This document shows, in pieces, positions 3,001 to 22,775 of a stretch of DNA of 22,775 nt (within the stretch, counting starts at the first letter, position 1; the number at the start of each line of letters is the position of its first letter). The notes beneath the pieces are model-generated. The model had not been told where the DNA came from and made no database searches. It was given only the letters and a program-made list of their open reading frames with translations. The translations under genes and the position numbers were made by a program. This DNA comes from a virus. The DNA is taken from positions 1-22,775 of the IMG/VR virus record IMGVR_UViG_3300020187_000239, one strand, 5' to 3'.

Positions 3001-5250
3001 TCTGCTATGGAGATGTTCAGTTCTACTGGTACGTCAAAATTTAAAACCAAAAGAGAGGTTGATCGATTGAGGGAAGATATGATGAGTAAAATGGGTCCCA
3101 CTATAAGAGAAGAATTTCTTGATAGTTTAGGGTCTTTTGGTGACGAAGAAATGAATTTGCCTAAAATAATCTTCGATCAAGAGGCGGCAAAGAAGACAAT
3201 TAGCACGAAAGAAACGGAGGTAATAAAAGCTTCTGAATTTAAGGATATTTTACAGTCTTCTGGAGCTTTGAATGATATAGATGTTTTGTCTGCACTAGCA
3301 AAAAGCCTTGTGAAGCAATATAAGGTTGAGGAAGTGAATGTAAAGAAAACTAACAACGCAATTATTACTCGACTCAATAAGGAAAAAATCTCTCTTTCAG
3401 CTCAAGACACTTTTAATGAAGCCATGAACACATCTGCTGTTTTTGGTCAAATGATGGCTGAACAATATCAGTTTAAAATGGCAACAATGTCTGCCTACAT
3501 GACCGAAGAAGAAATTGCGTCAGCCAAGCTGTCCGAAGCAAAAAGAGTTGCCGCAGACGCATACACTAAGTCGGTCAAAGAGGGGGAGCAAAAAGAAAAA
3601 GAATCAATTATTAATTTATTAAAAGGTGACAAATACAAAACCGGATTAACGGACTATTTAAAAACAAACAGTCTGGATGAAACAAGCTTTGGATCAAAAA
3701 GCTTGGAAGAGCTGCAAACTGCTGCCACAGAAATTGTTGGTGGTATTGCAGGTGGAGATAAAGTTATAGCAGAAATTATTGACAATCAAAACGAAAAATT
3801 AAGAATTCAAGAAGAAAAATACGAAAATATCAAAACACTTGCCGAATCAAGAGCCGAACTTGAGAAAAGAATAGCTGACGAATTACTCCGTCAACAAACT
3901 GGACCTGGCTCTTTTGGTAGGGGTATGGAGAGGGGTTTTTCTGATATGCGAAAACAAACTGAAAAAATGGATTACATGCTTGGAGCACAAATTCCTCAAA
4001 ACTTTGCGAATGGATTGGCCACTGCAATGAGCGAAGCTCTTTCTGGTGCAAAAGATTTGGATGATGCTTTGCGTGACGCCGCCATAGGTTTCTTGCAAAC
4101 CATTCAGCAAGCAATGATGCAAAAAGCTGCCAATAATATTGTTGGTATGCTTCCATTCTCTCGCGGCGGAAATGTAAGGAAATATTCTCAAGGAGGCGGT
4201 GTGCCTGCTATGGTCAGTAATGGTGAATATGTGATGGGTCGCGATGCAGTAAATAAATATGGCGGATCATTCATGCATGGAATGAATGCTGGTGGAAGTA
4301 TTCCTGGATTTAGTAATGGTGGTAAGCTTGAAGGTTTTCAATATAAGTCTGGTCGCGCATATCAAAACAAAAAAATGAGCGGTCGTTTTTATTCTCAATC
4401 TGGGAACGTGGGGCTTTCTGAGGATGCATCTGCTCTCGAGGGCGCACTACAAGACAAGCGCGAAAAAGAAGAGAAAGCTATTCAGGATGCAAAAGCAAAT
4501 GCAGAACGAAGAAATGCCAGGGTAAATAAAATTATAAGTTTTGTGGGTAGTGTTGCGATGGCAGGAATAACTTCTGGCATGATGGAAAAATTTGGGCCAA
4601 AAACTCCTGTTGGAAAAGGTACTGTTTTGAGTGCTACTGCAGATGGAGGTTTTTCGGGAGCTCAGGGTTACGGTACAGTTCTTAAGACTCCTGCCTCTGG
4701 ATACCCAGCAGCAACTATGCCTGACGCTTTATCGGCGTTTAGGGGTGGGCAGAGCAATCTCTCAACTCCGACTCGCCCGGGTAGTGTTGGAGCTTGGTTT
4801 CTTGACCCAACAAATAGATACATGGGTGGGCCAATTCGCAAATACGCAAGCGGTGGCCACATTGCAGGAAAATCTGGTATCGACCAAATTCCAGCCATGC
4901 TCAGCGAAGGAGAGTATGTTATTCGCGCAAGTAGTGCTCGTCAAATTGGCAAGCCAATGCTAGATCAAATAAATGCAGGAAAATTTAATGATGGTGGACC
5001 AATCGAAAAACTTGCAGAAAATTCAGAAACCTCTGGGTCAGGAGGAAGCACAAACAATATAAATATCTCGGTTAATATTGAAGGCGGATCTGTGAAGGGA
5101 GAAAATAAATCTTCTGATAAGGGATCTACTGACGTATCTGCAGGTAGTCAAAATCAAGAAGGTTCTCTTGCGATCGCCGAAAAAATAAAACAACAAGTAT
5201 TATCTGTTATTGTTGAAGAGCAACGTCCAGGAGGATTATTGAGTGATTGA
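1..5250 (+). CDS. Phage tail tape measure protein (5'-partial), TP901 type, with embedded cargo domain
   Basis: The frame is open from base 1, so the true start lies upstream. Residues are counted from the TTG at 43. The protein sets tail length, fills the tail tube and is normally ejected with the DNA. Residues 10-150 resemble the TP901 tape-measure core. Hydrophobic segments lie near 170-195 and at about 863-925 (Gly/Ala-rich), as expected of a protein that meets the host membrane. Residues 292-731 carry four G-x-(I/V)-PN-(F/Y) linkers around a nuclease-like cassette. A likely coiled coil lies at 1244-1285. Two Gly-rich blocks with a P-A-M-(V/L)-S-x-G-E-Y-V motif (about 1376-1417 and 1595-1652) are typical of tape-measure C-termini. 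At least 1749 residues are visible. The gene ends in TGA, overlapping the possible TTG start of the next gene. I am very sure of the family, less so of the cassette. Confidence 0.93.
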   Translation, partial: QQKTARGGAVIGNALKTIFTKTGKTDTLNQLENLGIAVRDLEGNTIGAKRILTDLADTFDTLSAAQKAQITQTMGGLFHINILKAVLSDAAKQNGIMAEATRISAGATDEAIQKNEELRKTMSAVATETGLAIKQVSTQIGEIALAPGMEKILNAVKSLAEGLSGVLGDGEGMGNKFATGLLKGIGNVITGPGLVVLASVFFKLFGQALKFTKESLTSLVGVTTEKQKQKAIQTSLVALFGQNAALNKEMLRTDIGRTEKEKIILGLLRAQVVEASSLNKLTAGMAGTLYRKGYGANLTPVGKKAGGHIPNYANPERAQAAQGGYAAGSIRTMNMPGEGPVIYNSAETVKNFAGFKQPAIMPPQSSKAGKNYQQAFGDIHGFDPYAAGGYIPNFKKSKAKTKEKAGPDINLNRLFKAQTESMGVLLGFGSEGAAKGQEYSQTYNSLPPKAKAALKKKNVVDRGTSRVVAELPTKAVYEITDGDVGRIQGVLGESELEKKLYHYVGNPFDKFSQAVGKDMFGGKIGKAGINVLKSHMEGSVLGGLFEAAVRGSLDNKKVADSQAPFDFTGSNAKNISEFMGNDNLDLIEAKYNLSAAKSGGIPKKILNYINTTIPGATTASKTSALGGVLTRKGDAMYINDEPFDSRSDKQKKALKGKGFEGTFGRNSLKKLFNSRGFIPNFADPLSDAIGREKAAGVPVSQIRVGSHGSLMGKGNPLGLGVTNTHDEPNGLRDVFGANGFVPNYAEGFAAGDIGKDAGNNDARKALARKINEQIQSIDASIYSEEDYRKEIDKIIKKQKKNGKSIELSKSGLDKASQISKRNTAEIQKNTVSQQANTIASQSNTTQTAANTAKRKTLGAKLVGGIKNMNQGMGGMGLMMGLPMLAGFIPGADKPGSAGGMVSGALSGAATGASIGMMFPGWGTAIGAAVGALGGFVTSLDSAKDAIKEEAYARGQFLAASFGGVGQKIFSEGSSEEIKRKKSIFGTFGSIPEEVDFDWFDSAMEMFSSTGTSKFKTKREVDRLREDMMSKMGPTIREEFLDSLGSFGDEEMNLPKIIFDQEAAKKTISTKETEVIKASEFKDILQSSGALNDIDVLSALAKSLVKQYKVEEVNVKKTNNAIITRLNKEKISLSAQDTFNEAMNTSAVFGQMMAEQYQFKMATMSAYMTEEEIASAKLSEAKRVAADAYTKSVKEGEQKEKESIINLLKGDKYKTGLTDYLKTNSLDETSFGSKSLEELQTAATEIVGGIAGGDKVIAEIIDNQNEKLRIQEEKYENIKTLAESRAELEKRIADELLRQQTGPGSFGRGMERGFSDMRKQTEKMDYMLGAQIPQNFANGLATAMSEALSGAKDLDDALRDAAIGFLQTIQQAMMQKAANNIVGMLPFSRGGNVRKYSQGGGVPAMVSNGEYVMGRDAVNKYGGSFMHGMNAGGSIPGFSNGGKLEGFQYKSGRAYQNKKMSGRFYSQSGNVGLSEDASALEGALQDKREKEEKAIQDAKANAERRNARVNKIISFVGSVAMAGITSGMMEKFGPKTPVGKGTVLSATADGGFSGAQGYGTVLKTPASGYPAATMPDALSAFRGGQSNLSTPTRPGSVGAWFLDPTNRYMGGPIRKYASGGHIAGKSGIDQIPAMLSEGEYVIRASSARQIGKPMLDQINAGKFNDGGPIEKLAENSETSGSGGSTNNINISVNIEGGSVKGENKSSDKGSTDVSAGSQNQEGSLAIAEKIKQQVLSVIVEEQRPGGLLSD
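916..2235 (+). repeat. Four G-x-(I/V)-PN-(F/Y) linker motifs in the tape measure
   Basis: The copies read GGHIPNYA (916-939), GGYIPNF (1162-1182), GFIPNFA (2026-2046) and GFVPNYA (2215-2235). The stretch before copy 2 (QPAIMPP at about 1066-1086, then a HGFDPYAA-like sequence) and the one between copies 3 and 4 (AAGVPVSQIRV, then NPLGLGVTNTHDEPNGL) look like conserved spacer peptides. I recall similar spacers in tape measures of other phages. They seem to mark boundaries between removable segments; what they do is unknown to me. Confidence 0.75.
1183..2025 (+). other. Cargo cassette in tape measure with PD-(D/E)XK nuclease-like core
   Basis: This is the segment between the second and third PNF linkers (residues 381-661). 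It contains G-L-F-E-A-A with E532, then A-P-F-D-F with D552, then D-L-I-E-A-K with E574 and K576. The order E ... D ... E-x-K, with 21 residues between D and E, fits a PD-(D/E)XK nuclease active site. A conserved glutamate on the first helix and an aromatic-Asp-aromatic strand are common in that fold. Glycine codon use differs from upstream: nine GGG codons in 1261-1900 against three in 43-1190. Nuclease activity is inferred from the motif only. It could instead be a catalytically dead structural insert. Confidence 0.55.
4168..4998 (+). repeat. Two Gly-rich GEYV blocks at the tape-measure C-terminus
   Basis: The block at about 4168-4293 has GGGVPAMVSNGEYVM followed by an alternating Gly/Asn segment. 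The block at about 4828-4998 has IDQIPAMLSEGEYVIRA followed by INAGKFNDGG. Both follow an (I/V)-R-K-Y-(S/A)-x-G-G start, so they are diverged copies of one module. They lie near the C-terminus, in the part of the tape measure expected near the tip end of the tail. Confidence 0.7.
5229..5235 (+). promoter_or_regulatory. Strong Shine-Dalgarno (AGGAGGA) inside the end of the tape measure gene
   Basis: This is the only full consensus ribosome binding site I see at a gene junction in the window. It lies 11 bases before the TTG at 5247 and 17 bases before the ATG at 5253. The spacing slightly favours the TTG; codon preference favours the ATG. Most later junctions have no clear site and rely on overlap. 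Confidence 0.6.
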
Positions 5251-6379: not shown

Positions 6380-7297
6380 GCGCGACCTTTTTTAAGATTT
6401 GAAGATGGTAAGATAACCTTGAATAATAAGGATCTTATGGTTAACTCTGCAAATCTATCGATCGCCCCAAGCTTAACTGTTGAAAAAGTGTACGGCGATT
6501 ATGATGAATCAATTGGTGGTGCACGAACAGAGTTTGTAAAATTTGCGCCAACACAAAATTTACGAGGACAATTAAGTATATCTTTTTATATATCTTCTGA
6601 TGTTATTTCTCCGAATAGTGTTGATAGATTGTTTGAATTGATTGATGTAGCAAATCCAGCGAATGCAAAAAATACAATTTCCGAAGCTCCAATAAATGGT
6701 AACATAGTTGGGCGTTATAGTTTTGATAATATGTTTTTGACTGGTTTTAATTTTCAAATGAGTCCATTTCAATTGATTGTTGCAAATGCAACGTACGATA
6801 TTTATGGATCAATTCACAGTATGACTGACAGATATTTTTCAAAATCAGATGTGGATTTCGCGCATGCTATGAAATCATTCGGTCAAATAAAAATAAGCAA
6901 TCAAGAAAGCGATGAAGAGTTTGAGATGGCGAGTCTAAGATACAATATAAATGTGGAGAGAAAAATCAGCAACAAGATAAGAGAGAATGAAAATACCGCG
7001 ATTAATACATATGCTGGCGGTGCATTGCCAGATCGTGTGAGTGTAGAATCAATCACTTCAGAAGCGACAATAGAATGTAACGATATGATAGACAATTTGA
7101 ATCCATATGGCGATCAGCAATTCACAAGCAATCCTGCAACGATTCCAGATTCCGCAGTTGATATATTTATGTATTCATTGGGTGGAGAGCGAATATCTAG
7201 ATTTCGATGCCAAGGAAAAATTCAAAATCAAAACGTTGCGATATCTGAGGGTTCCCATGCGAAAAGCAGTATAACAATAAAACAAATAATCAAATAA
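6377..7297 (+). CDS. Tail protein, second paralogue (function unknown)
   Basis: The product has 306 residues from the ATG at 6377 (308 from the TTG at 6371). It shares the layout of the previous protein: an L-N-N-K-D-L opening, A-P-T-x-N-L-R-G-Q-L-S-I (compare A-P-L-Q-G-N-F-S-I), a first half ending in Y-D-I-Y-G-S (compare D-I-T-V-Y-G-N), and a C-terminus with D-I-F-M and V-A-I-S-E-G then S-I-T-I-K. No catalytic motif is visible. The start has no clear ribosome binding site. The preceding TGA ends two bases before the ATG, so translation is probably coupled. The last base of its TAA is the first base of the next ATG (TAATG). It is probably a structural tail-tip component. Confidence 0.84.
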   Translation: MARPFLRFEDGKITLNNKDLMVNSANLSIAPSLTVEKVYGDYDESIGGARTEFVKFAPTQNLRGQLSISFYISSDVISPNSVDRLFELIDVANPANAKNTISEAPINGNIVGRYSFDNMFLTGFNFQMSPFQLIVANATYDIYGSIHSMTDRYFSKSDVDFAHAMKSFGQIKISNQESDEEFEMASLRYNINVERKISNKIRENENTAINTYAGGALPDRVSVESITSEATIECNDMIDNLNPYGDQQFTSNPATIPDSAVDIFMYSLGGERISRFRCQGKIQNQNVAISEGSHAKSSITIKQIIK

Positions 7298-8517
7298 TGC
7301 AAAACCTAACAAACATATCCAATTATCTTGGAGAGTATAAAACTGGTGTTGATTATAAAAAATTTGATTTTGTATATAACAAAGCAGATGGTCTGTATTA
7401 TTATGCAAAAGATGATATATCTTGGCAGGATGAGTATATAGTGTCTGATGTAAATCGTTTTACTTTGGATCCAAAGGGTCCGCTATATAATGGATTGCAG
7501 ACGTATTATCTTTTCGACTCACAAAATAACATGACCAATTATAAAGTTGGTCAACAAATAAAAATAGAGGGATCTACTTTCACAAATAATGGTCAATATA
7601 AAATAATCGATATTGAGGAGAATTACAATCCAAATGCAATAAAAGCTGGAGATTATATTCTTTCTGAGATCTTGAATGGCACAGAGGGTATGTCTGATTG
7701 GTTCGAGTCTGACTGGTTTCTTTTCGGAGAAAAAAATTTTTATTGGCCTGGTAGAGATTTTTCGGCATACGTAGATAGTTATATTGATTTGTTACAAGTT
7801 TATGAGTCAAGCGGAACGACTTTATCAAAAGAACAGTGGGGTCGTCAACATTATAAAGATTACGGAGAATCAGAAAATAGATCGATACCCCTCAATAGCG
7901 TAGGCAACTGGATGTATAACCCTTTTCTTGGGTGGGTATATGCATCCAGCTCAAGCTTGAATCCATCAGATAAATCTATATGGTTTTATATAGGCGGACA
8001 ATCAAAACAAGACGATCCCAAAAATTCTATTTGGTTTTTTTCAAAAAAAGATTGGACTAGTGGCGATAAGGCTGTATTGTATTATGAAGAAGAAGCTGAC
8101 GATGAATATGGTTTTGTAAAAACAGACGAAAACAAAACGTTTCAAAGCGACAACACAAAAGAAATAAATGTTAGCTCTGACGGTTCCGTAATGATCGCTC
8201 GAACCGACTCATCAATTACTAGATATACAAAAGCTGGTAACGTTTGGAGTGGTGGCGCTTCACTCGATTTTAATGGTGCTGCATTTAGATATCTTGCTTG
8301 CGATGAAAATTGTAATACTATTGCAGTGTTAACATACAAGGATCGATATTATACATTAAATTCTAGCATAGTACTAGATTACAAAACTGATTATGAATAT
8401 AATTCAAAAAAAGTAGATTCGAGTTATTCTATAATAATCAGCGGAGTGCCTTGGACGACCGTAAATCAGTCTGTAACAAGAGAAAATTTAATAGATTTTG
8501 AGGAAATAATAATTTAA
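7297..8517 (+). CDS. N-terminal part of a large tail-tip protein, cut by an in-frame TAA
   Basis: The product has 406 residues. The ATG overlaps the previous stop (TAATG). Order of parts: residues 17-42 (FDFVYNKADGLYYYAKDDI) resemble a CBM5/12-type carbohydrate-binding strand pair. Residues 148-198 resemble the Y-x-x-x-x-x-DL ... HY-x-x-x-G-E-S-E-x-R repeat known from many large surface and phage proteins. Residues 203-253 form a Trp/Tyr module (NWMY, LGWVY, WFY) that recurs in the gpJ homologue. From about residue 284, V-S-S-D-G-S-V and C-D-E-N-C-N-T-I-A-V look like beta-propeller blade strands. The frame stops at TAA 8515-8517, yet the same frame stays open for 3,285 more bases. The gene is therefore probably the front of one protein of about 1,500 residues, broken or conditionally split. 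Confidence 0.8.
   Translation: MQNLTNISNYLGEYKTGVDYKKFDFVYNKADGLYYYAKDDISWQDEYIVSDVNRFTLDPKGPLYNGLQTYYLFDSQNNMTNYKVGQQIKIEGSTFTNNGQYKIIDIEENYNPNAIKAGDYILSEILNGTEGMSDWFESDWFLFGEKNFYWPGRDFSAYVDSYIDLLQVYESSGTTLSKEQWGRQHYKDYGESENRSIPLNSVGNWMYNPFLGWVYASSSSLNPSDKSIWFYIGGQSKQDDPKNSIWFFSKKDWTSGDKAVLYYEEEADDEYGFVKTDENKTFQSDNTKEINVSSDGSVMIARTDSSITRYTKAGNVWSGGASLDFNGAAFRYLACDENCNTIAVLTYKDRYYTLNSSIVLDYKTDYEYNSKKVDSSYSIIISGVPWTTVNQSVTRENLIDFEEIII
7903..8055 (+). repeat. Trp/Tyr module NWMY-LGWVY-WFY, copy 1
   Basis: Residues 203-253 of the N-terminal tip protein. NWMY, three residues, LGWVY, 13 residues, then WFYIGG and a later WFF. It is about 50 residues long and lies between other inserted modules. 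A diverged copy sits in the gpJ homologue at 17827-17975. Similar GW-x-Y/W-x-Y repeats occur at the ends of various bacterial surface proteins; binding to a surface polymer is a guess. Confidence 0.65.
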
Positions 8518-9640
8518 AAATACGCTGCAGATGTTAAGATATATAAATATAATTCTAATTCTAATTCTTGGAATGAGTCTCATACAATAGAAAAAGTCGT
8601 AGAAAAAGATATTGTCGCTAATTTTAGTGCAGATGGAAACTCTTTATGTGTTTTTGAACCAAAATTTTTCGAGTATTATGCTTTTGATAACGGAATTTTA
8701 ACTGGAGACACTCAAAGAATTTCTATATTTGAATATAGTCAATCAACTTGGGGTAGAGGCTTAACTATGAATTCTTCAAATTTTAATTCCTGGAGCACTA
8801 AACCTCAAGATGCGGACGAATATGGTTATTCTTTGGGTTTAACTAAAAGAATGAAACTTGGTTTTTCTGGCCAAAGAGAAAATAAAGACTATTTACTTGG
8901 AATGAATAAGGATTTTGTAAATTATGATCAGTACTCCAGGTCTAGTGAGATGTACAGATCCGAAGGGCGTTTTGTGTATATGAGCCCGGATGGTAAAAGG
9001 TTATTTTATGTTGATAAAGATAGAGATATAATATGTATCAAGAAGTCCGATGAGCATGGATGGACGAATTATAAAAATGACGATTCTCACCCAGAGGATA
9101 AGGTATGGCCTTTGGATATACAGAAAATAAAAATTGAAAACAAATTTAAGGAAGATTCTAGCTGGGGAGCAAACTATAAAGATTATAACATTAAAACAAA
9201 TTACGATGGAACATTAGTTGTTACATTTGGTGATACTAAAATAAATAATAATAGAAAAATTTTTAATGAATACGATCAAACGTATTCCTCTTTGGGGGAT
9301 ATAACTGAACATTCTTTTGTTGAGGAGCAGGGCGTTTGGAAGTATAAAGAAATGGTTTTTGCTTTTAATTATATTTATAATATTTTTATAAATGATTTGA
9401 TTGTTAGCAAAAATGAGTCAGGGAATGTTAGGGTTGCTGCTGTAGCTGGAAGGGGAGTCGCTGCAAAAAATAATTATAAATTACAATATTCTGGAAATTT
9501 TGATGATCCGGGGGACGCTTCTGAATTTTTAGATTACAAAAAAGCAAGTGTTTGTATTTTAGAATTGAATGATCAACAGGAGTGGGTCTCTGTTAATGGC
9601 GATAAAATGATAGAAAACTCAATTGATTTTGATGTAGATC
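8146..9640 (+). other. Beta-propeller-like region spanning the in-frame TAA
   Basis: Recurring units have the form S-x-D-G-(S/N/K/T)-x-(L/V/M), a short strand, then V/I-x-I/R-Y and a Trp. Examples are SSDGSVMIA before the stop, and FSADGNSL, MSPDGKRLFYV and NYDGTLVV after it. The blades resemble YVTN/WD-type or SMP-type propellers. The region crosses 8515-8517, which argues that the two reading frames encode one domain. Blade number is uncertain. Confidence 0.5.
8515..8766 (+). other. In-frame TAA followed by an uninterrupted reading frame up to the next start
   Basis: TAA at 8515-8517 ends the upstream frame. Codons 8518-8766 (83 codons) contain no stop and no ATG, GTG or TTG, and run in the same frame into the gene called from 8767. 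The translation looks like ordinary coding sequence, with propeller-like strands such as A-D-V-K-I-Y-K-Y and F-S-A-D-G-N-S-L. This is not an intergenic spacer. A point nonsense mutation, a consensus error or stop readthrough would each explain it. Confidence 0.7.
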
Positions 9641-13260: not shown

Positions 13261-13800
13261 GTGAATACAGTATATTTACATGGCGGCATCGGCAAGCGAT
13301 TTGGTAAAAAATGGCAGGTTGATGCGCGCAATTCACAAGAGGTAGTCAAAGCTTTAGACGCAAATAATGAAGGCTTTGTTGCATATGTTGTAAAACAAGC
13401 GTTAGAGGGAAATGAGCATTTTTTACTTGCGAAACATCCAGATAAATTAAAGTCAAAACAAGATTTGATTGACAATATAATTGCAGAGAATGAAATAAAT
13501 AGAGAAATACATGTTGTGCCAAGTGTCTACGGGGGATTTGTCGCTGCTTTCATTGGAAAATTTATCGTTTCAAAGGCCGTTATTGGAGCAATGACTGCTG
13601 CATTTTGGGGTGGAGTTGCACAATTGGCAATTGGGGCACTACAGAAAACTCCAGACGATAAAGTAAATACCAGAGGAGATAATGTGTCAACAAAATCATT
13701 TCTTCTTGGAGCGTCTCGAGAAACTGCATCTCAAGGAGGATCAATTCCATTAGGATATGGTAGGGTGCTTGTTGGGCCTAATTTGATTGGGCAATCAATG
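13261..13800 (+). other. gpI-like domain fused to the N-terminus of gpJ
   Basis: These 180 residues align by landmarks with the whole of lambda gpI, including the end Y-G-R-x-x-V-G-x-x-x-x-x-Q. No stop or start codon with a ribosome binding site is evident between this part and the gpJ start at residue 200. In lambda the two are separate genes. Confidence 0.8.
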
Positions 13801-16800
13801 ACTACTACAAAAATAAATTCTAGTTATTTAGAATCTTCTACTCAACTAAGATTTACACACTTGATTTGTGAGGGCCCAATTGAAGGGCCAGTTAATGAAT
13901 ACGGCGCTAAAATAAATGCGTGGAATAATGACAGCGGAAAACTTGTTCCGAATATAGATGTACAAAAAGCATTATACATAAACGAAAGCCAGTTATTGAA
14001 AGGAGAATTTTATAATTTTAACTTGAATGAAACGGGAGATCTTCCTTCGATCAATATTAGTCGAGGTGAGTCAGATATTCTTGATGATAATGTAGCTATA
14101 ATTCACACAATAAATCAAGAACTTTTTGGAGTATCTCCGCATTATGGCGGTAAGAAAAAAGCTCATTTGGGAATTAGTGAAGCTTTTCCATCAGGCCAAG
14201 ATAAAGAAAAACCAACTGTTTTTTCTCATAAAATATCAAATATCGATACGAAGCAAGTTGTTATAAATTTTAGAGGAAGTGTGTTTACAACTAGACAAAA
14301 GGATGGAATAAATCAAGCGGACAGTGTATATTTTGCTATTTTTATTTTGGATAGTGACGGAGTAAGGAGAAATGTTCTAGAGCATCCTGATCGATACTTA
14401 TTGAGATTTAATGGTAATCAACTGGTGGACGCAAACAGAAAAGCTCTTGGGGTATATAAAGATTCGAGCGGAAGAATATATTTACTGGGAATTGCTACAT
14501 CTTCATATCAATTTGAATTTTCTGTAGTATTCAGGGAAAGCTTTACTAAAAATACACCAACAATACAAATAGTCAAACTTAGTAAAGAAACTGATACCAG
14601 TGCAGCATCTAATATATATACTACATGGAGTACAACAAGTAGAAAATGGTACGGAGCAAAAAAAGTTCATCAACACGAAAAAACAGACTGGAATAGCATT
14701 GGTGGACAAGGAAGAAGTAGAAGTATTTCTGTGTCAAGTATAGAAGAAAGAATTGTTGGAAAATTTGCATATCCAAATTGTGTCACATCAAGAATCGTTA
14801 TAGACAGTTTGAATTTTGCAAGCCAACCAACATTCATGTGGCATTTAAAATTAAAAAAAGTACTTGTTCCAGAAAATTATAATCCAAAAACCAGGCGATA
14901 TAATGGCCCATGGAATGGATTGTTTAAAGGGCAGGCTCAGGGCCAATCGATATACTCTATCGACGAAAAACATAAAGAATGGACCGATAATCCTGCTTGG
15001 ATATTTTATGATATGGTTTCTAATCCAACATATGGTTGCGGAAAGTATGGTGTTGGTGAATATGATATCGACAAGTGGCAAATTTATAAAATCGCAAAAT
15101 ATTGCGATGAAATGGTAGAAACAAATTATCCAATACAAACCGATTCTGGATTGTTAAAAACATTTGAATATAAGAGTTTTGGTAATGTTTCATATACAGA
15201 AGGTCAACTTGGGAAAAATAATAGTGTTGCTCAATTTAAAATAACTCTTGATAAATCAAAATATTCCAAGGATCAATACGGAAATCTTGTAGCTCAAGAA
15301 GTAGTTGATCAAGCTGGTTTTGATACGTACTATGAATATACTAGTGCGGGAAATTATTCTTTAACCATACCTGAGGGGGTGACAGAAATTGAAATATTAA
15401 CTATTGGTGGAGGTGGAAGTGGACAAGCGGGGAGCTTCGAAAATTTTTATTCCAACACTATTAGAACTAATGGTAGTAATGGACAAAGCTCTATTGTGTC
15501 GGGGAATAGTTGGAGTGTTTCTTCAATGGGGGGTAGTGGTGGGGGCGCGATTGATAGAAATGTTATAATTAATATCAGCGAATCTTTAAATATTATTTCT
15601 CAAATCAACGGAGTGAATCAAAAAATTGAAAACAGTAGCGGCGCAGACAGATCTGGCTCTTCCGATTTCTTGATTTCTGGTGCAAATGGATCAAAAAGAG
15701 CCTCGAACGTTGGCGCTTTTTTTAGTGAAACTAAATCTTCAAACACTCCAACTTTTGGGGCCGGTTCTGGGTCATCCTCTACACAATACGATGCTTTGTT
15801 TTTTGGAAAGCGTAATTTTACCCTAACTGGGGGCGGGTCTTCTGCTGCTGCCATAGTAATAGCCACTGTTAGTAATGGTGATGTTGTAAATATTACTGTT
15901 GGATCGGGAGGTACTGGGAAAAATGGTAAAATCGGTAGCAGAGTTTTTTCTAAATCAGGAAGAGGCGGAAGTGGTATGGTTGCTGTTAGGTATATTGTTG
16001 AAGGCTATAATGTAGGATTATCTACCCGAGAACAATTTGTGAAATCATTTGGAGATGGCAATAGTTTTAAGGGTAAGTCTGTCGCATTCTTTATTAATAA
16101 ACATAATTATGGATCTGCTGCATCAAATTATAGAACGCAAATAAAAAACAAATCTGTACTTAAGCAAAACTGTTTGATCGAAAGAAGGCAAATTATTAGT
16201 TCTGACCCAGATGAATTTTCAGTAACTTTAGCTGGAGAAGACTTTTCGAAGCATGAAGCAAGTTTTGAGGTTGATGTTGATGGAAACAGGGAATATATTA
16301 TGTATGGAGCTTGTGCGGCAGAGATTGACCATCCTATCGTTGAACCTAGATTTACTGCAAATTTATATCTAAAAGATTCAGTAGAGTCAATAAATTTGCT
16401 GAATATGTTTGCAAATATGTTTCGCGCGAGATTGTCATATAGTTCTGGTAAAATTAGCATACAGCAAGACTCAAAAAACTTACCCATACAATTATTTAAT
16501 AATACAAATGTATCAAGTGAAGGGTTTGCGTATTCTGGCTCTCAAAAGGATCAGCGTTTTTCAGTTGCAAAGGTTATGTTTAATAATAAAGAAAATGAAT
16601 TTCAGCAAGAGTACGTCTATGAAGAAGATGCTTCCGCAATACAAAAAATAGGTATTGTCGAAACCGAGATGAGCGCTCTTTCTGTGTCAAGTGAATCGGA
16701 GGCAAGAAGGCTTGCAAAATGGATATTGATGAGCGCGCAATATGAGCAAGAAGTTGTTAAATTTACAGCCGGACAAGAAGGCGCTTACACTTTTCCTGGA

Positions 16801-18786
16801 GCAATCATAGAAATATACGACGAAATGCGATCAGGAGATTTAAGATCGGGGAGGATTTTAGACGTGATTGATGATATCGAGGAGGGTGGCGAAACATATT
16901 TTTTAGTAGATAAAAGTATCATAAAAGAACCTATATTAGGTGATGTCGAAGTGACTGTTTCTGCTGGCGCAGATAATACAACACTCGAAAAAATAGAATC
17001 AAGAGCACAAAATGAATCGTCTGTCGCTGACCAAGATTATGAGATAGAAAATTTACAGTCTCAACAGCTTTTGAAATTTCAAGCGCGATTAATACCAGAT
17101 ACAGACGAAAGTAAATCTAGGGTTATTGATATGGTGGCTAAAATGCAATTTGAGCTTTCTGTCGATGAGGCAGTTTTTAAAATATTTTATCACGGATTTA
17201 ATGATGGAGATAAAATTAGATTTTTTAGTGATGGAATTCTTCCTTCAGGACTATCTCCTTTTGAGGAGTATTATGTTATATGCGCGGCAAAACACTCATT
17301 TAGGGTGTCGTTATATCCTCCTTTGTACCTAAGTGGCACATTAACTTTGCATGCTAGGTCAGAGGGTTCTAATTTAGTTGCAAATATTGTAAATGGAACG
17401 GGAACTTCTTTCACTTCTGAGTTGAATGTTGGAGATCATCTGATTGTTGAAGGTTTTGATTTTATTGTGACAGAGATAGAAAGTGATATTAAATTAATAA
17501 TTAATAAATCTCATCCTAGAGGATTTACTCAAGCGACTGGGTATACAAATATTATTCCATTAAATATGTTTAATATTGGTAGAGATAAACTGTTTAATAT
17601 TGGTGGCGAACATTTTGTGGTTCCGCTTGATCCACAAAAAACTCAAGAAAAAATAAATCAAGTAATGATTGGGGCAATTTACTCAATCAGGGGAGATATA
17701 GGAGTAATAGAAGATAATAAAAACTCTGTGACTTCTGGTGATCTTGCTAAAATAGGAGTCTCTGAAATATTTACAGATGATTGGTTGACGTCTAGCGTTT
17801 TTGGTCAAGTTAAAATTGTTGATGCAAATTGGATGTATGCGAAAAATCTTGGTTGGGTATATATCAAGGATATTATTTCTAGAGAAACTCAGAATGCAAA
17901 TGAATATTTTTGGTTTTATGTTGGTTCTTTTGGTTGGGTTGGAACAACAGAAGTTTTAAAGAATACGACATGGTACGTTCCATCGTTAAAGCAAAATAAA
18001 GATGGTGCTACTGGTTTTGTTAATATTAAATATGATGTTTATTCTGGAAATATTTCAAGTGTTTTTGTTTATTATGAATCTCAAGAAAATATAGACACAA
18101 CTATAGGAAGTTTTAATCTTGGGAGTTCAAATAAAAAACTAGGAAGATTGTGCGAGGTAAAAGAAGTAAGAGATCAAGAACCTTTCGGGTATCTTTTGAG
18201 CGTATCTGATTACAATGAAGATTTTGAATCATATGTTCCGTCAGTATTTAATCAATCGGCAAGTCAAGAAAAATACGACGCAATAAAAATAACAGGAGGT
18301 TCCCAAATAACTCCTGGAGAATCTCTGCAACAACAATACGCACTCAGATTAAATATAGAAAATCAGCTTGAATTTGACTTGTCTAAAAATTATAATATGT
18401 TTGTATCTGGATCTAGCTCTGCGAGTATTAATAAAACATGGAACTTTATATTTATAAATGAAACAACTATAGAGCTTGCTGGTTCTGCGAATGCGGCGGC
18501 GTTTGTATCTGATGTTAATTTTGATAATGCATATCTTTATTTGGTGAAAGAATTTGATAGTGATTTGAAGAAGTTTATTGAAGCAAAATATTTTAAAGTT
18601 TTAAATAACAAAGAAATTACAGACGGAAAATATGAAATTACTGCCACAGAATATTCATTTGATAAATTTGATGCTATTGACAGAAAGGGTGTAATTCGAA
18701 AACCAGTTATACCAATTCCTCCACAAGAAGGAATGGATATTCCAGAGGCTCCAACAAATCTTATACTCGCAAGCTCAACCGAATAA
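13261..18786 (+). CDS. Fused tail assembly protein I and central tip hub protein J
   Basis: The product has 1841 residues from a GTG start; the frame between the previous TAA and this GTG is only nine bases, with AAGG eight bases upstream. Residues 1-180 match lambda gpI: a beta-grasp start (Y-L-H-G-G-I-G-K-R-F-G), I-H-V-V-P-S-V at 83-89, a hydrophobic Gly/Ala stretch at 93-127 and L-G-Y-G-R-V-L-V-G near 164-172. From residue 203, C-E-G-P-I-E-G-P-V opens gpJ. N-Y-N-P-K-T-R-R-Y (540-547), N-P-x-Y-G-C-G (588-594), D-K-W-Q-I-Y-K-I-A-K-Y-C-D (604-616) and V-E-P-R-F-T-x-N (1027-1034) are hub landmarks. About 410 residues are inserted between the last two, including a glycine-rich domain. Accessory strands follow: G-D-K-I-R-F-F near 1316, a GTGTSFTSELNVGDHLIV element near 1380 and a Trp/Tyr module at 1523-1571. 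The hub closes with Y-E-I-T-A-T-E-Y near 1791. P-E-A-P-T-N-L then begins an Fn3 that is cut by the TAA. Confidence 0.93.
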   Translation: MNTVYLHGGIGKRFGKKWQVDARNSQEVVKALDANNEGFVAYVVKQALEGNEHFLLAKHPDKLKSKQDLIDNIIAENEINREIHVVPSVYGGFVAAFIGKFIVSKAVIGAMTAAFWGGVAQLAIGALQKTPDDKVNTRGDNVSTKSFLLGASRETASQGGSIPLGYGRVLVGPNLIGQSMTTTKINSSYLESSTQLRFTHLICEGPIEGPVNEYGAKINAWNNDSGKLVPNIDVQKALYINESQLLKGEFYNFNLNETGDLPSINISRGESDILDDNVAIIHTINQELFGVSPHYGGKKKAHLGISEAFPSGQDKEKPTVFSHKISNIDTKQVVINFRGSVFTTRQKDGINQADSVYFAIFILDSDGVRRNVLEHPDRYLLRFNGNQLVDANRKALGVYKDSSGRIYLLGIATSSYQFEFSVVFRESFTKNTPTIQIVKLSKETDTSAASNIYTTWSTTSRKWYGAKKVHQHEKTDWNSIGGQGRSRSISVSSIEERIVGKFAYPNCVTSRIVIDSLNFASQPTFMWHLKLKKVLVPENYNPKTRRYNGPWNGLFKGQAQGQSIYSIDEKHKEWTDNPAWIFYDMVSNPTYGCGKYGVGEYDIDKWQIYKIAKYCDEMVETNYPIQTDSGLLKTFEYKSFGNVSYTEGQLGKNNSVAQFKITLDKSKYSKDQYGNLVAQEVVDQAGFDTYYEYTSAGNYSLTIPEGVTEIEILTIGGGGSGQAGSFENFYSNTIRTNGSNGQSSIVSGNSWSVSSMGGSGGGAIDRNVIINISESLNIISQINGVNQKIENSSGADRSGSSDFLISGANGSKRASNVGAFFSETKSSNTPTFGAGSGSSSTQYDALFFGKRNFTLTGGGSSAAAIVIATVSNGDVVNITVGSGGTGKNGKIGSRVFSKSGRGGSGMVAVRYIVEGYNVGLSTREQFVKSFGDGNSFKGKSVAFFINKHNYGSAASNYRTQIKNKSVLKQNCLIERRQIISSDPDEFSVTLAGEDFSKHEASFEVDVDGNREYIMYGACAAEIDHPIVEPRFTANLYLKDSVESINLLNMFANMFRARLSYSSGKISIQQDSKNLPIQLFNNTNVSSEGFAYSGSQKDQRFSVAKVMFNNKENEFQQEYVYEEDASAIQKIGIVETEMSALSVSSESEARRLAKWILMSAQYEQEVVKFTAGQEGAYTFPGAIIEIYDEMRSGDLRSGRILDVIDDIEEGGETYFLVDKSIIKEPILGDVEVTVSAGADNTTLEKIESRAQNESSVADQDYEIENLQSQQLLKFQARLIPDTDESKSRVIDMVAKMQFELSVDEAVFKIFYHGFNDGDKIRFFSDGILPSGLSPFEEYYVICAAKHSFRVSLYPPLYLSGTLTLHARSEGSNLVANIVNGTGTSFTSELNVGDHLIVEGFDFIVTEIESDIKLIINKSHPRGFTQATGYTNIIPLNMFNIGRDKLFNIGGEHFVVPLDPQKTQEKINQVMIGAIYSIRGDIGVIEDNKNSVTSGDLAKIGVSEIFTDDWLTSSVFGQVKIVDANWMYAKNLGWVYIKDIISRETQNANEYFWFYVGSFGWVGTTEVLKNTTWYVPSLKQNKDGATGFVNIKYDVYSGNISSVFVYYESQENIDTTIGSFNLGSSNKKLGRLCEVKEVRDQEPFGYLLSVSDYNEDFESYVPSVFNQSASQEKYDAIKITGGSQITPGESLQQQYALRLNIENQLEFDLSKNYNMFVSGSSSASINKTWNFIFINETTIELAGSANAAAFVSDVNFDNAYLYLVKEFDSDLKKFIEAKYFKVLNNKEITDGKYEITATEYSFDKFDAIDRKGVIRKPVIPIPPQEGMDIPEAPTNLILASSTE
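15331..16011 (+). other. Glycine-rich adhesin-like domain inserted in the gpJ hub
   Basis: Residues about 691-917. It opens with Y-T-S-A-G-N-Y-S-L-T-I-P-E-G-V-T and then E-I-L-T-I-G-G-G-G-S-G, holds several Gly/Ser blocks, and closes with G-R-G-G-S-G-M-V-A-V-R-Y. This is the usual frame of glycine-rich domains in phage fibre and tip proteins, some of which carry variable receptor-binding loops. It lies between the hub landmarks K-Y-C-D-E and V-E-P-R-F. Receptor binding is likely but inferred. Confidence 0.7.
17827..17975 (+). repeat. Trp/Tyr module NWMY-LGWVY-WFY, copy 2
   Basis: Residues 1523-1571 of the gpI-J fusion: NWMY, three residues, LGWVY, 16 residues, WFY, then GWV and a final W. 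It matches the module at 7903-8055 in the tip protein upstream of gpL. It lies among accessory strands of the hub, before the conserved hub end, so it is an insertion relative to lambda gpJ. Confidence 0.65.
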
Positions 18787-18789
18787 ATG
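18784..18789 (+). other. In-frame TAA followed at once by ATG, splitting an Fn3-like domain
   Basis: TAA (18784-18786) is followed directly by ATG (18787) in the same reading frame. The last residues before it, P-E-A-P-T-N-L-I-L-A-S-S, look like the first strand of an Fn3. The residues after it (I-T-V-E-F-Q-V, then F-D-I-R-V-F-A-V-T) look like its later strands. No Shine-Dalgarno sequence is visible, so the second protein depends on reinitiation or on readthrough. Confidence 0.65.
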
Positions 18790-21700
18790 TCTACTTCGAT
18801 TACAGTCGAATTTCAAGTAAATGATCTTGATGCAAACTACGAAGTTCTTGGAACTTCTGATAATTATTCGTTCCAAGAAAAACTTGGGCTTGGTTCGAGC
18901 CTTGTGTTAAACGAAGGAGAAGAATTTGTAAAAGTTATTCCACTTAAAGGAAACTATGGAGTTTTTGATATACGGGTATTTGCGGTAACAGATATAGGTG
19001 TGAGGTCTCCATCTTTGATTGGGTCTGTAGAGGTGTTGCCGAAAGAATTAGAGAATACATTTACATTTTCAGAAATAAAAATAACAGATAATAAATATGA
19101 AAATCTAGAATCTAGCATAACTTACACCCCTCAATATCCAGGAGACAAGCTTGAGATTGAGTCAGAATTTGCAGAAAGAAGTATAAAGTTTAGTTGGAAT
19201 CTTGTCCCTCCTGATGGACACCCTCTTGAGGGTGCGGCGGTTTCTAATCAGTTGCTGAATGACACATTCTTTTCTGGTTTTAAAGTAAACATAAAGAATA
19301 ATGGTCAAACTATCAATCTTTCTGATGCAGGTTTCTCGAGCACTTCTCTTGATGCTCTTTCTAATACATTCGAAACAGATAAAGAAAATGTATTTGATAT
19401 ATTACAAAATTACCGAGATTTTTATCTTAACTTTGATAACAGTGTATTTAATGATCTTGGGCTTTCTAGGAATGTCGAACTTGAGATTATTTCGGTTGAT
19501 AGATTTGGGCGAGAGGCGACTGGAATAATTCGAGCAAACAATCCTGAGCCTGTAATAAATAATTTAACTCATTCTTTGCACGGTTCAGAGGCAAGTTTTT
19601 CATGGAGTTATCAAGATGTTGATTTTAGTTCTGTCGATATAAATGTTTTAGCGGTGCCCGAGGGTACAATTTTACCCTTTGATCAAGATCTAGATTTAAG
19701 TGCAAAACATTTTCAATCATTAAAACAAGCAAAGCCTTATAACAAATATAAAGGCGCATATTATAATGATGGAGAAAAAGTAGTATACGATAATAGAGTA
19801 TATAATTGTATATCTGGTCATACTAGAGAATTTAACGAAACACCAGATTATTCTGAAAGTTGGGAATTGATTGGTAATGTGGTTGATTTTAATTATTTTT
19901 CTTCTGCAGATGATGATAATAAAAACTTAATCGAAGATGTAAGTTTGTCTGATACTGTTGATGTTGAAAATACTTTTAATGTTCCGCAGTTATGGGGATA
20001 TGAATATTACTATACATTCCAGCCAAGCGATGGATTTGGAGAAGGACAAGTATACAATTTTACCAACCGAGGACTTATACAAAGGGGAGATGAAAATGAC
20101 GAGCTAGATCCACTGATTGTAAATATAAAACTAGATAATCTTCGATTTCGCGAAGTTAAAGATGATCTTGTTTTTAATTGGGATGTTACTGATCAAGACG
20201 GTAATCTTGTTGATATTAGTCAGTATAAATTTTTGTTTGGAAATAATGATACCCCTTCATTGTTGGGTATAAGTGGTTCGTTGTATGATGTTCATAGTCG
20301 ACAAAAAATAACTGGTATTACAGACGGATATAATTCTAAAGGTTTAGATTTTGATGAAGATGGGGATATTGTTGTCAATACGAATCTTCCATCAACAAAA
20401 GTATTCGATCAATATAAATATACGCGCGAATCTAATAATGCAATATACGCAACAGGAGGATTTCCCGCGGATTATCAAGATTACGACAATCAGGTCGTAT
20501 ATAATGTTGGTGATAATGTGTTATCAAATAATAAAATATATACTTCAAATACAAGCAATAATTCGCACTCTCCATCATATCCTTTGTGGCAGGAATCAGA
20601 AACATATTTTGCCGAAACATCAGATAAATTTGTATACAAAAATAATGTATATGTAACAACAGATAATTTTGGTGCAGATGCTGACACTACAAGCGGATTG
20701 TATAATGAAGGTGAGTCGTATAATCTCGGAGATATTGTATTGTCTCCAGAAAAGAATATTGCAATTTTTGAAGAGCAAGAGGCTTACAGTCCTGGAGATT
20801 TTGTTTTTCATAGTGGTTCTATATACGAATGTTTAATTGATATCTCAACCGAAGAAATTGCTCTTATTGAAAATAAAGACTACTGGAGAAGATCAGATAT
20901 ATTCGGAGATATTAAATGTTCATATTTTAAATCGCTAACAAGCAGTAATACTAGTTATCCATTTTCTAGTACATTAAATTGGGAAAAACTTAATCCAGAA
21001 AACCTTGCCGCAAACGCACAGTTCTTTGATGTTTTTGCGCCAGCTTATGAGTTTTCTATTTCCGATTGGAACTCTGGAAGTAAATATTCCTCAGGAAGTT
21101 TTGTTGTTTATGAAAACGATATATGGAGCGGAACTCAGTTAAGCCAGGGCCAAGCCCCATCCGGCACATCTGAGTATTGGGCTAATAATTTAAACGGTCA
21201 AGATTTTGGAACAGGTTATCAGGCTGGGGACTTGGTTTACAGTAATAATTTTATTTATCAATGCACTCAAAATAATCCTGCTGGTGGACCAATTGTTGCA
21301 CGCACAAATGAAGGTGATACTATTCTGTCTAGTTACGAAGAAACAAATTGGTTGCCATTCTGGGAATTGAATGATCAATATGATGATATTGTTTTTGGTC
21401 ACGTTGGTATTCCCCAAAGCGGAAAAAGAAGTGTTGGTATAGAGCTTGGTATTGTAGATAAATATGGAAAAATAGTAAACAAAGCAAATTTAGATGCCGA
21501 TAACCCAGCGCCATATATATTGACCGAAGGATTTGATGTTGATAGCACAAGCGAAGCAACAAAAGTAAAATTTAATTTCAATTACGCATTAGGATTTCAA
21601 GAAAAAACGACAAAAGTATATTTGTATAGATCTAGTGAACCAGATTTCGAGATCACTGGATCAAATGGATTGCCTTATGATAAAGTTTCTGGTGTAAATA

Positions 21701-22775
21701 ATCCTGATTCAACACTTGTATCAATTACTCTTGGAGTTGAAGGTGCCGCATTTGGAGATAATATAAATCAAATAATTGACGAGCCTCCGATCGATAAAAT
21801 TGATGGCGTTGATCAAATAACGGGTTACTATTATAAAATATTACCTTTTGATGATTTTGGTAGTGGTGTTTTATATAATGTGCCAGATGGATCAATGCGC
21901 AGGGTAATTGTTTATCCAAAGAGATACAATAATCCAAATCCAAATGTAATGCCTGGCAGGGTATTAAGATCAAATCCGACATCCACAACAGATGCTGTTC
22001 CTGGAGCAATACAAAACCTAACAGGATCCACTTCTTTTGAGAATTTCTTTTTGAATTGGAATGCGCCAGGATCTAACTTTTTTGATAATAATACATCCAC
22101 CGATTTTGAAAATGATATTGATCATTATGAGGTATGGCAAAGTGATGATCCGTATATAAAAAGCGGACAAAATGAAAATGCAACAAGTCCATGGCTTGAA
22201 GTCGAAAATACTGGATACAGAAAAATAAAAGGTGTTGCTTATAGTGTTTCCGAAGGGGATACTACTCCCGAAGAATCTTTGGATCCGGCAAGATATATAT
22301 ATGGCGCAGAAAATATATTTAATGTTGCCGCGAATACTCCATCTGTTGAAGTTGTTCATGGTGGAAAAACAAATGACACAAAATATTTTTGGGTACGAGC
22401 TGTTGATTTTGCGGGAAATAAAAGTCCATTTTCTAGCGCCGCAAACGAAGTAAATGTAAAAGGTTTAGGTTTGAATCTTGGTAGAGCTTCTGCAACAGAT
22501 ATTGCAGGTTTTGAAATAAATATGACCGACACCTTTAATGATGCCATTGCATCTGTTCCTAATAATCCATTCAGTCAAGATGGTAACGGGGGTTTGGAGT
22601 GGGACGAGCATGTTTTGTTTAGTGAGGGTACTGGATATATCGTTGAAGGTGGAGGCTTTGGATCTGATGTGGGTTACATATGGTGGGATAAAAAAGATGA
22701 AAACGGTAATTCAAATTTAAGTCAAAATTACTATGTTAAAACTGTTAATGGAGTGGAATTGTTTACAAATCAATC
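18787..22775 (+). CDS. Tail-tip fibre with Fn3-like and carbohydrate-binding-like modules (3'-partial)
   Basis: The frame is open from the ATG at 18787 to the right edge (1329 residues seen); no stop lies in the window. It holds about six Fn3-like units, recognisable by their closing strands: F-D-I-R-V-F-A-V-T (about 18967), L-E-I-I-S-V-D-R-F-G (about 19474), Y-Y-Y-T-F-Q-P-S-D-G-F-G (about 20005), I-E-L-G-I-V-D-K-Y-G (about 21436), Y-Y-Y-K-I-L-P-F-D-D-F-G (about 21826) and Y-F-W-V-R-A-V-D-F-A-G (about 22384). Units 3 and 4 contain inserted carbohydrate-binding-like modules. In lambda the Fn3 part belongs to gpJ itself, so this is probably the distal half of gpJ, made as a separate chain or by readthrough. 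Likely role: receptor contact at the cell surface. Base use is like the neighbouring genes. Confidence 0.88.
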   Translation, partial: MSTSITVEFQVNDLDANYEVLGTSDNYSFQEKLGLGSSLVLNEGEEFVKVIPLKGNYGVFDIRVFAVTDIGVRSPSLIGSVEVLPKELENTFTFSEIKITDNKYENLESSITYTPQYPGDKLEIESEFAERSIKFSWNLVPPDGHPLEGAAVSNQLLNDTFFSGFKVNIKNNGQTINLSDAGFSSTSLDALSNTFETDKENVFDILQNYRDFYLNFDNSVFNDLGLSRNVELEIISVDRFGREATGIIRANNPEPVINNLTHSLHGSEASFSWSYQDVDFSSVDINVLAVPEGTILPFDQDLDLSAKHFQSLKQAKPYNKYKGAYYNDGEKVVYDNRVYNCISGHTREFNETPDYSESWELIGNVVDFNYFSSADDDNKNLIEDVSLSDTVDVENTFNVPQLWGYEYYYTFQPSDGFGEGQVYNFTNRGLIQRGDENDELDPLIVNIKLDNLRFREVKDDLVFNWDVTDQDGNLVDISQYKFLFGNNDTPSLLGISGSLYDVHSRQKITGITDGYNSKGLDFDEDGDIVVNTNLPSTKVFDQYKYTRESNNAIYATGGFPADYQDYDNQVVYNVGDNVLSNNKIYTSNTSNNSHSPSYPLWQESETYFAETSDKFVYKNNVYVTTDNFGADADTTSGLYNEGESYNLGDIVLSPEKNIAIFEEQEAYSPGDFVFHSGSIYECLIDISTEEIALIENKDYWRRSDIFGDIKCSYFKSLTSSNTSYPFSSTLNWEKLNPENLAANAQFFDVFAPAYEFSISDWNSGSKYSSGSFVVYENDIWSGTQLSQGQAPSGTSEYWANNLNGQDFGTGYQAGDLVYSNNFIYQCTQNNPAGGPIVARTNEGDTILSSYEETNWLPFWELNDQYDDIVFGHVGIPQSGKRSVGIELGIVDKYGKIVNKANLDADNPAPYILTEGFDVDSTSEATKVKFNFNYALGFQEKTTKVYLYRSSEPDFEITGSNGLPYDKVSGVNNPDSTLVSITLGVEGAAFGDNINQIIDEPPIDKIDGVDQITGYYYKILPFDDFGSGVLYNVPDGSMRRVIVYPKRYNNPNPNVMPGRVLRSNPTSTTDAVPGAIQNLTGSTSFENFFLNWNAPGSNFFDNNTSTDFENDIDHYEVWQSDDPYIKSGQNENATSPWLEVENTGYRKIKGVAYSVSEGDTTPEESLDPARYIYGAENIFNVAANTPSVEVVHGGKTNDTKYFWVRAVDFAGNKSPFSSAANEVNVKGLGLNLGRASATDIAGFEINMTDTFNDAIASVPNNPFSQDGNGGLEWDEHVLFSEGTGYIVEGGGFGSDVGYIWWDKKDENGNSNLSQNYYVKTVNGVELFTNQ
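19747..21372 (+). repeat. Five CBM5/12-like modules in the fibre
   Basis: Each module has the order Y/W, G-(D/E/S)-x-V, a strand with Y or W, and a closing W. Copies: 19747-19880 (Y-N-D-G-E-K-V-V-Y, V-Y-N-C, S-W), 20464-20600 (Y-N-V-G-D-N-V-L, I-Y-T-S, L-W), 20785-20900 (Y-S-P-G-D-F-V-F, I-Y-E-C, Y-W), 21058-21192 (Y-S-S-G-S-F-V-V-Y, I-W-S-G, Y-W) and 21193-21372 (Y-Q-A-G-D-L-V-Y, I-Y-Q-C, W-L-P-F-W). A degenerate copy may lie at 20701-20770. Such modules bind chitin or other glycans in known proteins; the target here is unknown. Confidence 0.65.

Follow-up and report, generated by a model that had tools for sequence, protein, structure and literature searches.

A predicted Fn3 domain divided between the adjacent hub and central-fibre genes of a lambda-like phage tail tip

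The hub of a lambda-like phage tail tip and its central fibre, encoded here by two adjacent genes, are likely to be two separate chains in which the domain FNIII-1 is cut between its strands A and B and joined again by strand complementation. Comparison of relatives and structure prediction point to such a joint between hub and fibre as the most likely explanation of the gene boundary described below.

Hub and fibre genes of the window

The window, by which we mean the whole stretch of DNA analyzed, is an entire IMG/VR virus record of 22,775 bases and holds a lambda-like tail operon with a tape-measure-like ORF, minor tail proteins and the hub. Tight or overlapping gene junctions are common in this operon, including TAATG junctions at 7297 and 11802, and tail genes abut or overlap at 5247, 6371, 7297, 11802 and 18787 (TAATG, TGATCATG, TAAATG). 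The ORF at 7297–8517 ends where a near-identical relative (L122) stays in frame, with the next ORF running from 8767 (region 8400–8770); in the window's copy this is either a broken gene or an assembly error.

The hub ORF, whose length of about 1,841 residues a sequence-only reading of the window had already given, produced matches to the phrog_31 family (central tail fiber J, E 8e-96), to the Pfam family Phage-tail_3 (E 3.9e-14) and to lambda gpJ in the PDB (8iyk_J, E 1.2e-33), which together identify its hub domains as homologs of lambda gpJ. Upstream of these, a profile built from hub residues 1–185 matches lambda gpI (full-sequence E 4.3e-16). This gpI-like region was detected in 56 of 70 hub ORFs tested, namely in 56 of 59 ORFs of the split clade defined below against 0 of 11 outgroup ORFs, some of which are incomplete; among the three split-clade ORFs without it, two start at a locus end, and the remaining one is an ORF fragment of 239 aa. 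A glycine-rich stretch was also observed within the hub at 15340–15441 (Pfam Gly_rich_2, E 1.8e-5, residues 694–727).

The fibre ORFs of relatives are mostly about 1,850–2,170 aa long, these lengths being limited by the available flanks. Four CBM_5_12 stretches were found in the fibre ORF of the window (E 1.9e-16), one of them at 19753–19836, which suggests binding of surface polysaccharide. A role of the N-terminal fibre domain as an adaptor for swapped receptor-binding parts was considered and found no support, all 2070 ordered pairs of 46 fibres being detectable along residues 1–1200. Searches of the phages collection for cultured relatives returned none, neither by tblastn with the first 400 aa of the fibre nor by blastn with the L118 junction, and among GTDB genomes 77 candidates for the hub–fibre pair in one search and 22 in another yielded 0 confirmed cases each.

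Table. Features of the hub and fibre genes in the window
Feature	Coordinates	Strand	Remarks
Hub ORF	13261..18786	+	1841 aa, GTG start, stop TAA; gpI-like N-terminus, gpJ-type hub domains and predicted strand A of FNIII-1
gpI-like region, in-frame fusion to hub	13261..13815	+	Residues 1-185; phrog_32 (tail assembly protein), E 3e-17
Conserved gpJ hub core (Phage-tail_3)	16393..16857	+	Pfam PF13550, residues 1045-1199
End of conserved linker before FNIII-1 (IPIPPQEGMD)	18709..18738	+	PP and Q invariant in 56/56
Predicted Fn3 strand A at hub C-terminus (PEAPTNLILASSTE region)	18739..18783	+	Predicted strand, model residues 120-129, block pLDDT 87-89; P, P and L invariant; alignment with full Fn3 domains starts at model residue 115
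TAA stop with ATG immediately after it in the same frame	18784..18789	+	TAA 18784-18786, ATG from 18787
Central-fibre ORF	18787..22775	+	1329 aa in window, open at window end
Fibre N-terminal domain, predicted Fn3 strands B, C, C', E, F, G	18787..19041	+	Structure prediction; six strands alone, seven with hub tail

Conservation and predicted structure around the gene boundary

To collect relatives, viral contigs were searched with the hub end and the fibre as well as with the N-terminus of the fibre (A1) and the C-terminus of the hub (A2). Loci identical over the 600 nt surrounding the start of the fibre gene were merged, which left 56 distinct junctions; one locus without a fibre match (L112) was dropped. 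Across the 56 rows the hub tail follows the conserved pattern PPQ..M..P..P..L.L.DLT. Within the putative strand-A motif P..P..L.L, both Pro residues and the first Leu are conserved at 100% and the second Leu at 95%, and the hub chain ends five residues after L.L in 44 junctions, four residues after it in 4 and 7–32 residues after it in 8. On the other side of the boundary the fibre opens with M..ST.I.I.F, in which the conserved Phe of the putative strand B lies 8–9 residues after the Met in 56/56. Read in succession, the hub and fibre ends look like strand A of an Fn3 domain followed by a short loop and strand B, and on this alignment the place of the cut within the predicted domain is a conserved feature of the junction. 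The longest of the hub ends, at the L056 hub C-terminus (L125:5304-5381), continues for 32 residues beyond the strand-A motif as a Gly/Ser-rich tail, so a donated strand could evidently bear a free extension; the non-uniform hub end, running 7–32 residues past strand A in 8 of 56, likewise suits a free chain end.

The segments flanking the cut are the most conserved among the stretches measured. The last 75 aa of the hub have a median of 58%, against 27% for the preceding 300 aa, and the first 105 aa of the fibre have 56%, against 35% for fibre residues 106–400 (the next 295), as measured on the 46 fibres available over 1200 aa or more (47 before the near copy L002 was removed). Such peaks on both sides of the cut are what an interface at this place would give.

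Structure prediction was carried out on the fibre domain alone and on the joined sequence, and the structure alignments (A3 and A4) drew on a selection of the 56 rows. When fibre residues 1–105 were modeled alone with AlphaFold2 (46 sequences), six strands were predicted with a mean pLDDT of 83.5, and strand A was absent; VIA-align fitted this lone domain to Fn3 domains with the match starting past their strand A (1fna from 14, 6xay from 1644), with a best Z of 9.3. Hence, the first domain of the fibre is not predicted to be complete without the hub residues; a complete lone domain would have spoken against a shared one. The joined model comprised the last 129 hub residues, a Q at the position of the stop and fibre residues 1–105 (79 sequences). 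Here seven strands were predicted, the seventh being supplied by hub residues (model 120–129, blocks 87–89) and the next strands reaching blocks of 89–96, within a model of overall pTM 0.53 in which the hub part has low confidence. Model residues 115–215, corresponding to window positions 18739–19041, fit whole Fn3 domains with Z of 11–12 by VIA-align, including FNIII-1 of lambda gpJ (8xci_F 616–712, Z 11.1, rmsd 2.1, 89 aligned; 8iyk_F, Z 10.9) as well as the equivalent region in DT57C and T5 (8hqz_A 733–834, 7zn4_b 726–834). A seven-stranded Fn3 fold across the junction is thus predicted by AlphaFold2 and VIA-align. As the joined chain by itself sets the strands side by side, the model is a statement of fit and compatibility, not of binding.

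Profile searches give a different picture of the same region. With E values allowed up to 10, Pfam fn3 was found in 0 of the 12 joined members, the complete Pfam search of these joined members (A5) returned one weak PKD match in 1 of 12, and a PDB profile search across the joint retrieved no Fn3 and chance-level matches only. In the one-chain relatives L199 and L200 introduced below, Pfam fn3 was matched at E 0.004 and 0.0091, which is below the curated cut-off. The apparent Fn3 over the junction to which the sequence-only reading had drawn attention is therefore supported by the predicted structure over 18739–19041, whereas Pfam finds 0 families in the window member. For annotation this means that a domain can be divided between adjacent TAA-ATG genes and be invisible to profile searches in either of them.

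The same observations can be read with the hub tail outside the fibre domain. The fibre would then begin with an Fn3-like domain of six strands, and the tail of the hub would be a linker or bind elsewhere, for example to a neighboring hub subunit. This is compatible with the confident prediction of the lone domain without strand A (pLDDT 83.5), with the hub tails that extend 7–32 residues beyond strand A in 8 of 56 and with the silence of sequence profiles regarding Fn3. We nevertheless judge it improbable, because the strand-A pattern P..P..L.L is kept in nearly all 56 hub tails, because joining restores a standard Fn3 (Z of about 11–12 against 8–9), and because the 8xci_F alignment places the same strand at the same place in lambda gpJ, as part of one chain. 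Prediction and conservation agree instead on an acceptor domain lacking a strand that its partner carries, and the proposal that two chains complete one Fn3, made earlier as one of several possibilities, finds its backing in the step from six strands alone to seven when joined and in the conservation of the cut.

The junction among relatives and its history

The same-frame TAA-ATG noticed at the outset is present between the hub and fibre genes of the window, and all 56 distinct junctions are split, with 0 fused. The frame relation across the boundary is not conserved. Relative to the hub, the fibre lies in frame 0 in 14 junctions, +1 in 23 and +2 in 19; after clustering at 90% identity, the 42 clusters retain a similar spread (9/17/16), and at least 17 frame changes are required on the tree. 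A clear spacer between the genes was found in none of the relatives, the stop-to-ATG gap ranging from -4 to +11 nt across the 56 junctions and measuring -8 nt in two further relatives (L190 and L192). By this comparison the same-frame relation of the window junction looks like chance (14/56), while chance is a very poor account of where the gene boundary lies (56/56 split): the in-frame state appears as one of three that are gained and lost among the relatives, and the gene boundary persists.

These frames bear directly on the idea that the stop is leaky or recoded, with readthrough of the TAA yielding some hub–fibre fusion as in lambda, so that the tip would hold hub-only and hub-plus-fibre forms. 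In the window and 13 other junctions the two genes are indeed in the same frame, which is open past the stop. However, in the 42 out-of-frame junctions readthrough would end after 0–26 codons; the share of in-frame junctions does not exceed one in three, the frame has changed at least 17 times, and the stop is TAA in 52 of 56 hubs and TAAT in 29 of 56. With frames varying among the 56 junctions and kept across the stop in only 14, readthrough cannot be the shared mechanism, the two-form tip loses its footing, and we regard a leaky stop as very unlikely. Fusion by frameshift was likewise rejected as a shared mechanism, as in-frame junctions would need readthrough and the others shifts of different sense, and so was programmed recoding more generally, no single type of which fits all frame relations. 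In 16 of 56 hubs, XXXYYYZ heptamers lie within the final 60 nt. Only 1 of 56 relatives has an SD-like motif ahead of the fibre start, and this scarcity hints at a host with little SD use.

Ordinary operon packing offers another account, in which the cut inside the Fn3 is accidental and without functional meaning. It draws on the tight and overlapping junctions common in this operon (TAATG at 7297 and 11802), but a cut site that stays constant despite deep divergence and 17 or more frame changes, flanked on both sides by the most conserved stretches among those measured, makes it highly improbable. That the stop stems from a sequencing error or a broken gene is barely credible and is refuted by the relatives: another ORF of the window is broken near 8515 when compared with a near-identical relative, but the junction is repeated letter for letter in a second, independent IMG/VR record (L009/L002) and the gapless in-frame TAA-ATG recurs in L003, L004 and L029 (only 5 junctions in all, counting the window and its near copy L002), which makes a wrong base in a single assembly very improbable, and all 56 junctions are split.

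A search with divergent hub tails recovered three more split relatives (L190–L192) and the distant hubs L194–L203. In L194–L203 the hub C-terminus runs on without a stop through this region as one chain; L193 carried no label in the tree described next, its ORF reaching the locus end, still open, before the domain is complete. In a tree of the hub sequence up to the linker, 33 split rows fall on one side of a single branch, and the one-chain rows and lambda J fall on the other side, with an SH-aLRT of 100 for this branch in what is a quick tree with long-branch warnings. The rows comprised 30 of the 56 split rows, all three of L190–L192, 9 of 11 outgroup loci and lambda J, with L199 and L201 omitted as too short upstream. 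The simplest history suggested by these sequences would be one split of a single-chain gpJ inside FNIII-1, retained since.

Proposed joint and comparison with known systems

Returning to strand complementation, the arrangement we propose can be outlined as follows. A hub in which gpI is fused to gpJ hub domains and a central fibre would be produced from adjacent genes, probably by translational coupling. Reinitiation or coupling is a plausible start for the second chain, giving a separate chain, since tight junctions are common in the operon and an SD-like motif before the fibre start is limited to the single relative mentioned above. Strand A of FNIII-1 would follow the linker at the hub C-terminus, and strands B–G would make up the fibre N-terminus. 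Strand A of the hub would insert beside strand B of the fibre and thereby attach the fibre, probably three times around the trimeric axis, a stoichiometry that we infer, and the joint would carry the pull that opens the tube. The fibre domain without A and the full Fn3 on joining are both predictions of the models; that strands A and B meet in the particle is the step we infer from them. A study of Fn3 folding reports that strands B, C, E and F form the folding core and that A and G are the last to pack (PMC4330816), so it is reasonable for such a domain to obtain A from a second chain.

A more tentative extension, which we hold at a little short of even, is that the chain break has moved into the Fn3 and that the donated strand serves as a non-covalent, force-bearing clutch between receptor binding and tube opening. 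The force path from receptor binding through fibre and hub to tube opening is an open question for long-tailed phages, and the hub tail peptide and the fibre domain would make a simple binding assay. No report of an Fn3 shared by hub and fibre was found in a literature search of partial coverage, which is not proof of absence; within that search, the hub–fibre pair appears as a new form, a variant of a known tail tip not previously described.

Completion of a domain by a strand from another chain has precedents outside phage tails. In chaperone-usher pili, donor-strand complementation completes an Ig-like domain that is without one strand by a strand of the next subunit; the pilin is without its G strand and takes up an N-terminal extension, with a chaperone involved. 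Here, by contrast, an Fn3 without A would take the C-terminus of the hub, and no homology is claimed. Another case is Tencon, a consensus-derived Fn3 scaffold whose PDB entry (4m6a) names N-terminal beta-strand swapping in its title, which indicates that the A strand of an Fn3 can be supplied in trans. That swap is engineered and homomeric, whereas the present one would involve two different natural genes.

Among tail tips, one close likeness is to lambda gpJ, which matches the hub domains by sequence and whose FNIII-1 (8xci/8iyk) is matched by the joined model. In lambda a linker precedes FNIII-1 (PMC10721106), as it does here. The chains are divided differently: in lambda the hub, FNIII-1, FNIII-2 and the fibre form one chain and gpI is separate, whereas the present pair has gpI as part of the hub chain and the fibre as a chain of its own. 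The single polypeptide of lambda is therefore not what the window encodes, given the stop at 18784–18786 and the split in 56/56 junctions, most of them out of frame.

In having hub and fibre on separate genes, the pair resembles T5, in which pb3 (hub) and pb4 (central fibre) are separate proteins with a string of FNIII domains below the hub, and the plug, the gpI equivalent, lies within the hub chain, similarly to the gpI–hub fusion found here (PMC10038345, PMC10721106). The break itself is placed differently. In T5, pb3 ends after two whole FNIII domains, pb4 starts with three, and the two are joined through loops and the pb4 N-terminus (PMC10038345); here, with strand A predicted in the hub tail, the break would not fall between whole domains, and one domain would be shared between the chains. 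In both T5 and lambda a linker connects the hub to FNIII-1 (PMC10038345, PMC10721106, PMC11101478), and for T5 it has been proposed that bending of the fibre exerts a zip-like pull on this linker, which opens the tube (PMC10038345). The joint is thus one chain in lambda and a set of whole domains on two chains in T5, and in the lineage described here its first domain would itself be cut, which makes this lineage a natural test of how much of the hub–fibre joint must be covalent.
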